64,000 nucleotides of DNA from positions 124,001 to 188,000 of the forward strand of contig NZ_CAAHFG010000001.1 of NCBI RefSeq assembly GCF_900890425.1. The letters run 5' to 3'. Under the pieces are notes generated by a model, which was not told the origin of the DNA, searched no databases, and worked only from the letters and a program-made list of their open reading frames with translations. Every line of letters starts with the position of its first letter. Within the stretch, counting starts at the first letter, position 1. This DNA is from Pontiella desulfatans (GTDB taxonomy: Bacteria > Verrucomicrobiota > Kiritimatiellia > Kiritimatiellales > Pontiellaceae). This document shows, one piece after another, positions 55,398 to 58,761 of this stretch. The position numbers were made by a program, and so were the translations under genes.

Positions 55398-55400
55398 TAC

Positions 55401-55631
55401 ATGGCTTATAAAACTAAAATCAGAAAAATTGGTAACTCCCTCGGGATCGTTCTTCCGAAGGAAGCGCTTCTGGCAATGAAAGTGGAGGAGGGCGCTACGC
55501 TGTACATTACTGAAGCACCGAAAGGTGCATTGCTGGTAACCCCGGAGGAAGAAGATTTCATCGATATGATGGAACTTGCGGAGAAGGGGATGCAGAAATA
55601 CCGCAATGCTCTTCGGGAACTTGCCAAATGA
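55401..55631 (+). CDS. AbrB/MazE-type antitoxin
   Basis: 76 residues. The swapped-hairpin motif Lys-Ile-Gly-Asn-Ser-Leu-Gly-Ile-Val-Leu-Pro-Lys-Glu and Val-Glu-Glu-Gly-Ala-Thr-Leu-Tyr-Ile define the AbrB DNA-binding fold; the acidic C-terminus would wrap the toxin. It overlaps the toxin gene by four bases (ATGA). The usual partner of a Doc toxin is a Phd antitoxin; an AbrB-fold partner is the less common combination. Confidence 0.85.
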   Translation: MAYKTKIRKIGNSLGIVLPKEALLAMKVEEGATLYITEAPKGALLVTPEEEDFIDMMELAEKGMQKYRNALRELAK

Positions 55632-56008
55632 AGGAACCACGCTGGATAACACCGGCGGTTATTCATGCGATGCATGAAGAGTTGCTTGCCCGTTTTGGTG
55701 GTTTGTCCGGGGTGCGTGATGAAGGCATGTTGGCTTCTGCTTTGGGGAGTCCGAAAAAATCATTCGCCTACAAGGGTTCATCCCTTTACGAACAGGCGGC
55801 AGACTATGCCGTTGGAATCGTGAAAAACCATCCGTTTGTGGATGGGAATAAGCGCACAGGATTTATGGCGGCTTATGTTTTCCTTCTGGCAAATGGGAAA
55901 AATTTCAGCACGACGGAGGAAGCGGTCGTACTTCAAACCTTATCCCTCGCCGCCGGCGAAATCAGCGGCGCAGAGTATGCCCTATGGCTTGAGGACTCGT
56001 GTGAATGA
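55628..56008 (+). CDS. doc: Doc/Fic-type toxin
   Basis: 126 residues. The Fic motif reads His68-Pro-Phe-Val-Asp-Gly-Asn-Lys-Arg-Thr-Gly, the Doc version that phosphorylates EF-Tu. The preceding Asp-Glu-Gly-Met-Leu-Ala-Ser-Ala-Leu is also typical of Doc. It would stop translation unless neutralised by the upstream antitoxin. The hairpin after the stop (56013-56045, TTGAAGC/GCTTCA) may end transcription. Confidence 0.88.
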   Translation: MKEPRWITPAVIHAMHEELLARFGGLSGVRDEGMLASALGSPKKSFAYKGSSLYEQAADYAVGIVKNHPFVDGNKRTGFMAAYVFLLANGKNFSTTEEAVVLQTLSLAAGEISGAEYALWLEDSCE

Positions 56009-56070: not shown

Positions 56071-56259
56071 TCACTTTTCCACGCCGAACTTGGCGAGGAT
56101 TTTTTCCATCAGGCACCATTTGGTGATGCCGGACTGCAGCAGGTTGGCCCCGACGAATACGGTGAACCACATCCAGTTGGGGTGGACATAGTGGGTGAGG
56201 GCCACTGAGGCAAGAATCATTATTCCTGCGATGACACGAATCCAGTTTTCCATTTTCAT
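56071..56259 (-). CDS. DUF2892 small inner-membrane protein
   Basis: 62 residues with two membrane segments (about 8-22 and 28-45) and the family end Cys-Leu-Met-Glu-Lys-Ile-Leu-Ala-Lys-Phe-Gly-Val. The pattern is that of the YgaP-type DUF2892 membrane module, here without a rhodanese. GGAGAGGTAGTGAA gives a ribosome site. The function is unknown. Confidence 0.82.
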   Translation of the reverse strand: MKMENWIRVIAGIMILASVALTHYVHPNWMWFTVFVGANLLQSGITKWCLMEKILAKFGVEK

Positions 56260-56517
56260 TTCACTACCTCTCCTTGAATATTAATAATTTCTAATATAGA
56301 TGCTTCGAGGTGGATTTCGTTCAAATTATTTTGAGTTAATGTCTCCTCCGCAACGGACAGGAAAGTAGCTCGCATATCCGATGCGAGTGCCCCGGTGGTC
56401 GGGTGTGCTTCTCCCATACGAAACCGTGAATCGGATAAACGCGCTTCAGCCTGGTAACAGTGGTTTCCACAAGTCCCATTCGAATTTTACTGCCTCGTTT
56501 GCTTCGGTTCGAATGTT
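56260..56517. other. Gap without a convincing gene
   Basis: The gap holds the DUF2892 leader, a seven-base-pair hairpin (CTCGCAT/ATGCGAG at 56369-56387) and a 61-codon open frame at 56336-56521 that has an unusual composition and no clear ribosome site. No gene or RNA could be supported. Confidence 0.4.
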
Positions 56518-56549
56518 GCATCTAAATTGACGGCCGTCAATTTAGATGC
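56518..56549. repeat. Perfect 32-base palindrome with core TGACGGCCGTCA
   Basis: The two 16-base halves are exact reverse complements. The core TGACGGCCGTCA is the same as in the palindrome at 57776-57815, while the outer arms differ. A stop codon of the GH18 remnant lies inside it. Confidence 0.85.
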
Positions 56550-56596
56550 GACATCTTAGTCCAGAATCCGTCGGGTTCCTGGCCGATGCTCCGCCA
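56537..56596 (-). pseudogene. GH18 3'-end remnant
   Basis: Twenty codons read Trp-Arg-Ser-Ile-Gly-Gln-Glu-Pro-Asp-Gly-Phe-Trp and run into a stop inside the palindrome. The intact GH18 gene ends with Trp-Arg-Ile-Gly-Gln-Glu-Pro-Glu-Gly-Phe-Trp followed by its own palindrome. The remnant lies 14 bases after the stop of the unknown exported gene. Confidence 0.7.
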
Positions 56597-56609
56597 CATT
56601 GAAAAGCGT

Positions 56610-57746
56610 TTACTTAATAATCACTAGCTGTTTGCTGGAAACGTTATAGTAAATCGACGTGTATTCCCGTCCGGAACTTTCTACTACCAAATAGGCCCAT
56701 TTTTCCAGTGGTGTGGCTCGAAGATCTACTCCGGCTTCAGGGAGATCGCGCTCGGCTTTGTAGCGCATCATATGGAGGCTGTTCCCTGAAATTTTCATCT
56801 CGATACCAACGATTGATGCTTCAGAAAAACGCTTTTTGAATTCCGGATGGGCGATTGTTTCCTTGAATGCCATGTCAATATCTTCGGCCATGATTTCGGT
56901 ATGAACAACATCCGGCTCCAAGATGGGGAAAATCGTTTTGATTTTGCAGGGGTGCCCATATTCTTCAATAGGTATGAACGTAGCGCGCCATTCGGGTTCC
57001 TCGAAGTCGATTCCATATGTGCTTCGTCCTCTGAAGTCGGAAGCTTCCTCCAGCTTGAAGTACTTCTGGAATCGCTTATTCAGGGCGCTCTTTTCGTAGG
57101 CTTCCAAACCCTTGCTAGCGGCTTCCGTTTCCCTTTCTTCACATACTTCGGTAAAGCTTCTCGCGTAGGAATCGTGTTGAGTTTCAATTATATCTCCGGT
57201 TTCAACGTCGAACAGATATCTGGTTTTATCGATCATTGTCAGACAGAAATTATGGTTTGAAATCCGGTCGGAAAAGGACTGCTTGAATGGTCGCCACTGG
57301 TAGTAAATGACGGAATCACTCAAGGAGGCAGGGTCTTTTATTAGATCGCACACGCGATACTGTTTTAGCAATGTGCCCCGGTCGTAGAATGCCACAGCAA
57401 TGTCGGTATGTTTCTCTTGGTCACATGAATGCGGATCAAGGCTGACGAAATAGCGCCCGTCATCGGAGATGAATCCTTCGTAGGCATACCACCCGGAAGT
57501 TTCCCACTGTTTCGTGAGCTTGCCGTCCGAGTCCATTGTGTAGGCAATTCCCTGCGGTCTCTTGGCCGGGTTGAGTTCGTTGCCGCTGGAATTCCATTCG
57601 GGTGAGATCATTTTGAAAAGGGCGGTTCCTCCTGCGGAGGATTTCATCCAAGGGTTTTGCGTTAGTTCATCGTCAGCAGTGGATGACAACACCGATGCAA
57701 TTAGAATGGCTGGAGCAAGACGGCGCAACTGGATCATATGTCCCAT
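56610..57746 (-). CDS. Exported protein of unknown function between two palindromes
   Basis: 378 residues from the ATG at 57746-57744 (GGAGG 13 bases upstream; a second ATG at 57737 is possible). The first about 22 residues form a signal peptide (Leu-Arg-Arg-Leu-Ala-Pro-Ala-Ile-Leu-Ile-Ala). The body has many aromatic and acidic residues, a beta-rich first half (YEGFISDDGRYFVSLDPHSC), and a C-terminal Tyr-Thr-Ser-Ile-Tyr-Tyr-Asn-Val strand region. I do not recognise a family. The base composition is lower in G+C than the neighbours. It is bounded on both sides by palindrome plus GH18 3'-end sequence, suggesting it arrived as a unit. Confidence 0.7.
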   Translation of the reverse strand: MGHMIQLRRLAPAILIASVLSSTADDELTQNPWMKSSAGGTALFKMISPEWNSSGNELNPAKRPQGIAYTMDSDGKLTKQWETSGWYAYEGFISDDGRYFVSLDPHSCDQEKHTDIAVAFYDRGTLLKQYRVCDLIKDPASLSDSVIYYQWRPFKQSFSDRISNHNFCLTMIDKTRYLFDVETGDIIETQHDSYARSFTEVCEERETEAASKGLEAYEKSALNKRFQKYFKLEEASDFRGRSTYGIDFEEPEWRATFIPIEEYGHPCKIKTIFPILEPDVVHTEIMAEDIDMAFKETIAHPEFKKRFSEASIVGIEMKISGNSLHMMRYKAERDLPEAGVDLRATPLEKWAYLVVESSGREYTSIYYNVSSKQLVIIK

Positions 57747-57775
57747 TTTTAAATCTGATCCTCCATGACTAGGTC

Positions 57776-57815
57776 TGTTGCAGTTATGGTGACGGCCGTC
57801 ACTATAACTGCAACA
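57776..57815. repeat. 40-base palindrome with core TGACGGCCGTCA at the end of GH18
   Basis: The halves match as reverse complements at 19 of 20 positions. It shares the 12-base core with the palindrome at 56518-56549, but the arms are unrelated in sequence. The GH18 stop codon (57804-57802) lies within it. Confidence 0.85.
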
Positions 57816-58761
57816 AATAGTTCCAGAATCCTTCGGGCTCCTGGCCGATGCGCCAGCAGGCGATGCCGCGGATGGGGCGCTGGGCATAGAGGTCGTATTT
57901 GGCCTTGAGCGACTGCTGGGTTTCGTAGTGGACGTTGATGGTGACGGTTTGCTGAAAGCTGTAGTGGCCGCAATCTTCCGTCCAGGTGGATTTGATGCCC
58001 TTTTTTGAAAGCTCATCGACGATCTCGCGGTTCTTATAGGCCTTGGCGAGGGAGGGGGTTTGCCAGCCCCGGCCGTAGAGCGGGACGCCCATGACGAGCT
58101 TGTCGGCGGGAATGGTTTTGAGGGCGTAGGCATAGATGTCGCGGCACCAGGGCAGGGAGGCGATGGGCCCGTGGGAGCCGCCGCGGTAGTGCTCGTCGTA
58201 GGCCATGACCACGACGCGGTCGGCGATCATGCCGATGAAGGGATAGTCGAACGCATCGGTGGGGTTCTTGCGCTTGTGCTCCTCCCAGCGCGCCATGACG
58301 GCCACGCTGAACAGCTTGCCTTTGGGCAGGGCTTTTTTTACGGCGGCGAGAAAGTTGAGGTAGTTGGTGCCATCGGTTGAGCTCACGCTTTCGATGTCGA
58401 TCTGAACGCCGTCGAAGGGGCCGCAGCGCTCGACGATGCCGTCGATGATCCGCTGGCGGAAGGGGAGCTTGGGGTCGAGATAGATGTGGGCGAGGGTGGT
58501 GCTCCAGGGAATGGTGACGACGAGGTGGTAGCGGGTGCCGCGATTCGCGCCGGGCAGGGCGGGGGGCGAGGTGTGGCCGCCGGAGAGGTTGCCGTCGCCA
58601 TCGACCGCGGCGCTGAAGCAGCCGACATCGGTGATGGGCGATTGGGCCGGGAAATATTTTTCCTCGCCCTTCATGAGATAGGCCCAGGTTTCGGGGAAGG
58701 GTTTTGCCTGCCCGGCGATCGCGGACAGGCAGAGTAAAACGGCGATGATCTGCTTATTCAT
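57802..58761 (-). CDS. GH18 glycoside hydrolase, exported
   Basis: 319 residues with a signal peptide (1-19). The catalytic stretch Phe-Asp117-Gly-Val-Gln-Ile-Asp122-Ile-Glu124 gives the Asp and the acid Glu of family 18, with Gln at the middle Asp position, as in many YaaH-like members. Later blocks are Met-Ala-Tyr-Asp-Glu-His and Met-Gly-Val-Pro-Leu-Tyr-Gly-Arg-Gly-Trp, ending Cys-Trp-Arg-Ile-Gly-Gln-Glu. It probably cleaves N-acetylglucosamine polymers (chitin or peptidoglycan). It follows the PAS protein gene by 50 bases; the start codon is in a hairpin stem. Confidence 0.85.
   Translation of the reverse strand: MNKQIIAVLLCLSAIAGQAKPFPETWAYLMKGEEKYFPAQSPITDVGCFSAAVDGDGNLSGGHTSPPALPGANRGTRYHLVVTIPWSTTLAHIYLDPKLPFRQRIIDGIVERCGPFDGVQIDIESVSSTDGTNYLNFLAAVKKALPKGKLFSVAVMARWEEHKRKNPTDAFDYPFIGMIADRVVVMAYDEHYRGGSHGPIASLPWCRDIYAYALKTIPADKLVMGVPLYGRGWQTPSLAKAYKNREIVDELSKKGIKSTWTEDCGHYSFQQTVTINVHYETQQSLKAKYDLYAQRPIRGIACWRIGQEPEGFWNYLLQL

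Follow-up and report, generated by a model that had tools for sequence, protein, structure and literature searches.

The genome of Pontiella desulfatans carries a large set of palindromic insertions of about 42 bases which apparently has not been described before. We propose, and regard as probable, that these palindromes are a mobile element of about 42 bp in a system that resembles REP/RAYT but is run by a PaaX/Cas2-like protein, with no HUH transposase. The palindromes form families, and the arms of each family are those of both palindromes that surround one PaaX-like gene in the same genome.

Two of these palindromes, here called A and C, lie in the window, that is, the whole stretch of 64,000 nucleotides of P. 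desulfatans DNA that was analysed, and are the top two by strength across it. The features of this locus are the following:

57802-58761, minus strand: GH18 chitinase-like gene (Pfam Glyco_hydro_18, E=1.2e-25).
57776-57815, no strand: palindrome A, 40 bp, near-perfect and loop-free, TGTTGCAGTTATGG-TGACGGCCGTCA-CTATAACTGCAACA.
57715-57775, minus strand: spacer and start of gene X, a probable remnant of a first allele.
56610-57746, minus strand: gene X, 378 aa, with a likely signal peptide and of no known family.
56537-56592, minus strand: copy of the GH18 3' end, about 20 codons, W-R-S-IGQEPDGFWTKMSHLN.
56513-56554, no strand: palindrome C, ATGTTGCATCTAAAT-TGACGGCCGTCA-ATTTAGATGCGACAT.
56071-56259, minus strand: small intact gene, which we take to be DUF2892-like from reading its sequence; the presumed second allele, found directly 3' of GH18 in several relatives.

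Read along the minus strand, the order is GH18, palindrome A, gene X, the GH18-end copy, palindrome C and the DUF2892-like gene. Palindromes A and C have the 12-bp core TGACGGCCGTCA in common and differ in their arms, and each of them gives the GH18 frame that enters it its last codons and stop: the last GH18 codons and the TAG stop fall within palindrome A, and the TGA stop of the copied 3' end comes from the core of palindrome C. Palindrome C and the GH18-end copy are contained in a 79-nt direct repeat (56514-56592 versus 57776-57854, 77% identical), which bears out the sequence-only reading of this DNA, according to which GH18 ends in a palindrome with this core and a 20-codon copy of its end, followed by a second palindrome with the same core, recurs past an unknown gene. 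The lower G+C content that had been described between the palindromes was also recovered, with about 45-50% compared with about 58-65% for GH18 and the DNA beyond. Gene X had no significant match in Pfam or NCBIfam, and an Rfam RNA search of window positions 54.5-59.5 kb gave no match.

A search for other palindromes centred on this core, which had been suggested together with that reading, returned 24 copies of TGACGGCCGTCA in the 8.66-Mb genome versus 1 for the reversed control, and all the copies are centres of near-perfect palindromes of 30-52 bp with a few arm types. The two tightest palindrome pairs besides that of the window enclose one gene each, and both genes are PaaX-like (a PaaX_M Cas2-like domain plus PaaX_C). 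The host genome has nine PaaX-like genes, nearly all located between palindromes of their own arm type, and in the genus the core also occurs as variants such as GACGGCCGTC, CACGATCGTG, GACGATCGTC and CCCGATCGGG. A covariance model trained on 47 palindromes (A3, R1) detected at least about 60 sites in the host genome; it scores no more than 150 candidates in each genome, so its counts are lower bounds. Sorting of about 70 palindromes (model sites plus PaaX flanks) by their arms produced families of 13, 13, 10, 10, 6, 6, 6, 4 and 3 members that match the nine PaaX-like genes. Palindrome A was placed in the family of the palindromes around the PaaX-like gene G000 C2:~93990-94805 (L024) and palindrome C in that of the palindromes around G000 C2:776240-777046 (L111). 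As a separate observation, palindromes of different families often lie 0.2-1.6 kb apart (L234:1486/3083, L219:1307/1485, L222:1497/2434 and, in the window, 56513/57776), a spacing closer than even scatter over 8.66 Mb.

A GH18 ortholog is present in 25 of 28 genomes of the genus, as a single gene per genome in most of these. Where the downstream order could be read in the relatives, GH18 is followed, often after the DUF2892-like gene, by convergent purE and purD, and gene X never occurs at the locus; this comparison of related genomes had been put forward as a check by the sequence-only reading. Relatives pass from GH18 directly into the DUF2892-like gene with no X, so new DNA has been gained at this place in the window. 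The earlier suggestion of a cassette gained beside a gene end thus stands as regards the gain of DNA, but a cassette with paired palindromic borders was rejected, because A and C belong to different families that are cognate to different PaaX-like genes. The locus is probably the scar of two tandem GH18-end/DUF2892 alleles with different palindrome families at one site, a moderately supported reading that agrees with the other suggestion made earlier, the scar of a GH18 tandem copy, which we favour. Between palindrome A and gene X the sequence is similar to the GH18-DUF2892 spacer of relatives and to the beginning of their DUF2892 (0/500 shuffles, three relatives), and in a scan of the 64 kb for resemblance to the DUF2892 start the X-start site ranks third, after the real DUF2892 gene and a place near 1.5 kb; the same bases show no resemblance to the window's own DUF2892 start (261/500 shuffles as good). 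Of 28 conserved bases, 2 are different in the GH18-tail copy and the resident GH18 end, a divergence equal to that of G008, so the copy is not a fresh duplicate. In the tandem alleles, the breaks would lie within DUF2892 of the first and within GH18 of the second, and X would stand between them. In G009, a palindrome of yet another family is located at the same place of the GH18 end. The location of A and C at a homologous GH18 position fits with family turnover at fixed sites, or alternatively may come from repeated insertion into a favoured site.

Seen from the window only, X could instead be a cassette that arrived by site-specific recombination between palindromes, with the 79-nt repeat as a target duplication or att sites, in keeping with the direct repeats of GH18 end plus palindrome on both sides of X and with the lack of X at this place in relatives. 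We consider this doubtful, given that A and C are of different families and neither is a hybrid, that the DUF2892 remnants beside palindrome A point to two tandem alleles, and that the relatives of X elsewhere (33-34% identity; 96 other genomes were searched and two, including Pontiella sulfatireligans, had such a gene) were not seen between palindromes of this kind, the P. sulfatireligans relative having only an unrelated looped hairpin nearby. Integron attC sites have ends of the type GTTRRRY/RYYYAAC; this identity was rejected by the arm sequences, as the palindromes end in GTTGCAG/CTGCAAC and in many other arms. The scar of two tandem alleles is the reading that we retain for the locus. 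An AbrB-like and a Fic/Doc gene, a toxin-antitoxin-like pair located at 55400-56008 between the DUF2892-like gene and purE, are apparently missing at that place in the relatives read and would represent a second insertion at the GH18 locus.

We next turn to the protein encoded between the palindromes. Pfam profiles matched PaaX_M and PaaX_C above cut-off together with a weak Cas2 or winged helix, and no Y1 transposase domain was found by Pfam at E<=1. The element proteins are far below the cut-off of the NCBIfam PaaX equivalog (64.3 and 49.7 versus 264.55 bits) and also below those of the Cas2 profiles (Pfam, 20.2 and 17.4 versus 23.8 bits; TIGR01573, 19-20 versus 24.5). The AlphaFold model used was obtained from a 68-sequence input (pLDDT 84), a 20-sequence input giving a poor one (pLDDT 59). 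This model has the overall fold and domain order of the E. coli PaaX repressor (PDB 8a39; Z 16.3 over its length), and residues 105-184 match Cas2 with Z of about 7-8, where a Z below 8 would be weak alone but Pfam points the same way. The Foldseek and VIA lists say little on residues 1-100, where the model is of low confidence in parts. Like the Cas2 and VapD nucleases (PMC10491678, PDB Cas2 entries), the element proteins have a central Cas2 ferredoxin fold with a conserved Asp, but unlike Cas2 they have it fused to a winged helix and PaaX_C. This residue, Asp113, corresponds to the catalytic position of Cas2 (the Asp of the motif [YF]D[VI]PE) and is invariant in 68 element proteins, whereas the position is occupied by Ser, Tyr or Gln in the seven ordinary PaaX regulators that served as control, and no Asp of E. 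coli PaaX aligns with it. The invariant Asp113 is the main hint of a putative catalytic activity.

In GTDB contigs we detected 64 PaaX-like loci, which belong to Kiritimatiellota, Lentisphaerota and other Verrucomicrobiota, with one Patescibacteria record besides. The palindromes around the gene are a feature of Kiritimatiellota, Lentisphaerota and Verrucomicrobiota alike: of 72 distinct PaaX-like loci, 60 have a palindrome no more than 150 nt away on one side or both, and 37 have one on each side, compared with 1 of 293 control windows taken in the same loci at the same score; the 12 loci with no palindrome at threshold are mostly distant. Ordinary PaaX regulators differ in this respect, since none of the seven (actinobacterial, plasmid-borne) had palindromes, their maximum score being 7 versus a threshold of 9, and GH18 loci, used as a gene control, showed nothing comparable at the threshold used, the window excepted. 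Plasmids yielded only actinobacterial PaaX-type proteins with 25-33% identity, of which those with an annotated PaaX gene formed the control, and the one pattern used on viral contigs found no relative. The palindrome pair of locus L255 is of the usual type. At L256 and L257, from two genomes of the same class, the palindromes near the PaaX-like genes have a two-base GG centre (TCTCAGGTGAGA type), a core unlike all others. At L258 (G164 C7:36157) the PaaX_M profile also takes an apparent true Cas2 beside a Cas1-like gene, so matches to PF20803 need care.

The relationship between each gene and its palindromes proved to be specific. With the central 10 bp left out, the arm distance was 0.17 within the pair of one gene versus 0.64 between genes, and the own partner was the nearest palindrome in 25 of 37 pairs. 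Protein distance was correlated with arm distance (Mantel r=0.42, with 0 of 2000 permutations as good), showing that the palindrome arms evolve with the PaaX-like protein. Across 28 genomes of the genus, PaaX-like genes and palindromes occur together in 13 and are both absent from another 13; G002 has only PaaX, with no covariance-model match, and G027, a draft 85% complete with no PaaX match, has only palindromes. The test of this co-occurrence is partly circular and incompletely independent because the palindrome model was trained on PaaX-flanking palindromes, in an alignment selected for palindromicity. In the A3 alignment, pairing is good in the outer half-sites (columns 2-11) and in the core and fails most often in columns 12-14; its sequences were picked as palindromes, and the difference along the arm is outside this selection. 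Such a pairing pattern is more in keeping with a dimer that recognises two half-sites on duplex DNA than with the mere requirement for a hairpin.

Four solo palindromes are inside open reading frames, which from their translations we take to encode Mfd, SRAP, a GH2 enzyme and a B12-binding radical SAM protein. The Mfd site is empty in most relatives, and in five species it is occupied in-frame by palindromes whose arms belong to three or more unrelated families, with inserts that, counted on the sequences, are exactly 42 nt in four species and 33 in the fifth; the palindrome in G013 Mfd is decayed. In SRAP, palindromes of at least three families are found at one position in seven species. The palindromes at these two sites match a PaaX-like gene of the genome in which they lie better than is the case with shuffled labels (0/5000), with the exceptions of G009, G028 and G024, in which the cognate gene may have decayed or be missing from the draft. 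These results show that the palindromes are insertions and that unrelated families occupy the same site in different species.

We propose a mechanism in which a dimer of the PaaX-like protein would bind its own palindrome, placing the winged helix on the half-sites of about 10 bp and the Cas2-like domain over the conserved core. The bound protein would then cut or nick its palindrome, and repair of the break would copy the palindrome elsewhere, either to a site not occupied before or in place of a palindrome from another family; the palindrome-PaaX-palindrome arrangement would be the autonomous unit and the solo palindromes its non-autonomous copies. We infer that catalysis resides in the PaaX-like protein. 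No recent second copy of the whole unit was seen in the host genome, where the L025 protein and its nearest paralogue are 68% identical; the case for mobility is therefore weaker for the unit with the gene than for the solo palindromes. We would give about even chances to the further proposal of a class of minimal mobile element, a palindrome-PaaX-palindrome of about 0.9 kb in which a Cas2-type nuclease with a winged helix spreads its own palindrome of about 42 bp and overwrites rivals at fixed sites. If true, a Cas2 fold would mobilise DNA without Cas1 and without HUH transposases.

Another host or IS enzyme could also move the palindromes, the PaaX-like proteins being passengers or domesticated controllers, for example nucleases that restrain or resolve palindromes. 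In favour of this are the six type-A palindromes inside a MITE-like repeat of about 390 bp (L016, L017, L019, L029, L032 and L035, with about 350-390 bp around the core), which has the terminal inverted repeats CTCTTCACGGAAGAG / CTTCCGTGAAGAA; two copies of the repeat are truncated at or near the palindrome, and no copy without palindrome, as an empty site, was found. Since type-A copies ride in this repeat, part of the spread follows another route. It also weighs on this side that movement by PaaX is a step we infer and that, to our knowledge, Cas2-like proteins without Cas1 include no transposases. Mobilisation by another enzyme is nevertheless unlikely in our view, as the one-to-one cognacy of the arms with the bracketed PaaX gene, the co-evolution of arms and protein and the co-occurrence of PaaX and palindromes across the genus all argue against it.

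Still less probable is a regulon, with the PaaX-like proteins as transcription factors, the flanking palindromes as autoregulatory operators and the solo palindromes as target operators. PaaX is a known repressor fold, and symmetry of the outer half-sites and core with loose columns 12-14 is what would be expected of a dimeric double-stranded DNA-binding protein, but the positions of the palindromes and their in-frame insertion argue against operators: solo palindromes have a median distance of 41 nt to gene 3' ends versus 168 nt to 5' ends, 13 of them are flanked by convergent genes and 4 are intragenic, in many loci the PaaX gene itself ends within its 3' palindrome, and the insertions, mostly of 42 nt where measured, lie within the coding frames of Mfd and SRAP. 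Nine parallel families in one host genome and ordinary PaaX genes without palindromes are likewise against it. That the palindromes are merely intrinsic terminators under selection is hardly credible, since, although many are found just past 3' ends, they are loop-free palindromes of 40 bp without a constant T-run, have in-frame copies inside genes and copies 5' of genes, and show a family structure that matches the PaaX genes.

The mobile palindrome with its PaaX/Cas2-like protein, which we prefer, finds its closest parallel in REP-RAYT systems, including REPtrons and REPINs (PMC2817692, PMC3116915, PMC3733652). A RAYT gene is flanked by two REPs, co-evolves with them and correlates with their copy number (PMC2817692), and both systems have a gene between two palindromes with many cognate solo copies, several families side by side in one genome, palindromes that co-evolve with their protein, gene presence that tracks the palindromes and a mostly extragenic location near 3' ends. 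They differ in that the protein here is PaaX/Cas2-like and not an IS200/IS605 HUH Y1 transposase, and in that the palindromes are about 42 bp, loop-free and nearly perfect. On inspection, no constant GTAG or GTGG was present beside the approximately 70 palindromes; with both the HUH transposase and the GT(A/G)G head missing, the PaaX palindrome system is not a REP-RAYT, though it works alike. The unpaired CGTC at one end of CGTC-tagged REPs was not encountered either, CGTC being in the paired core where present. CGTC-type REPs have no dedicated mobiliser (PMC3733652), and the only dedicated REP mobiliser described in the cited papers is the RAYT HUH transposase. Nothing that we found in the open-access literature connects PaaX with palindromic repeats or with mobility. 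Rickettsia palindromic elements are palindromic DNA located in-frame inside protein-coding genes, and we know of no gene that mobilises them; the likeness to the in-frame insertions found here is one of behaviour only.

Many bacteria have palindromes of the REP type. A further protein family, unrelated to the first and likewise linked one-to-one with palindromes of its own, would represent a case of convergence. It would give a function to the palindrome-bracketed 'PaaX regulator' genes of the Kiritimatiellota-Verrucomicrobiota lineage and would place the Cas2 fold in DNA mobility without Cas1. The unrelated families at one Mfd or SRAP site make the rivalry between palindrome families readable from sequence.

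Two further observations were made on palindromes that lack a partner gene and on genes that seem to be decaying. A small orphan family (ATTAAATCCAGATTGACGATCG; L235:1512, L218:1511, L243:1484 and L246:1486) has no cognate PaaX in the host genome and matches the PaaX-flanking palindromes of relatives at L104 and L105, as if the mobiliser had been lost. Some PaaX-like genes are apparently decaying (G000 C1:4199217-4200035 and C5:27155-27976, G028 C2:1457381-1458192 and G024 C70:6568-7156), with an in-frame TAG in the matched stretch, a split in two or a missing middle part, and some of them keep their palindromes.
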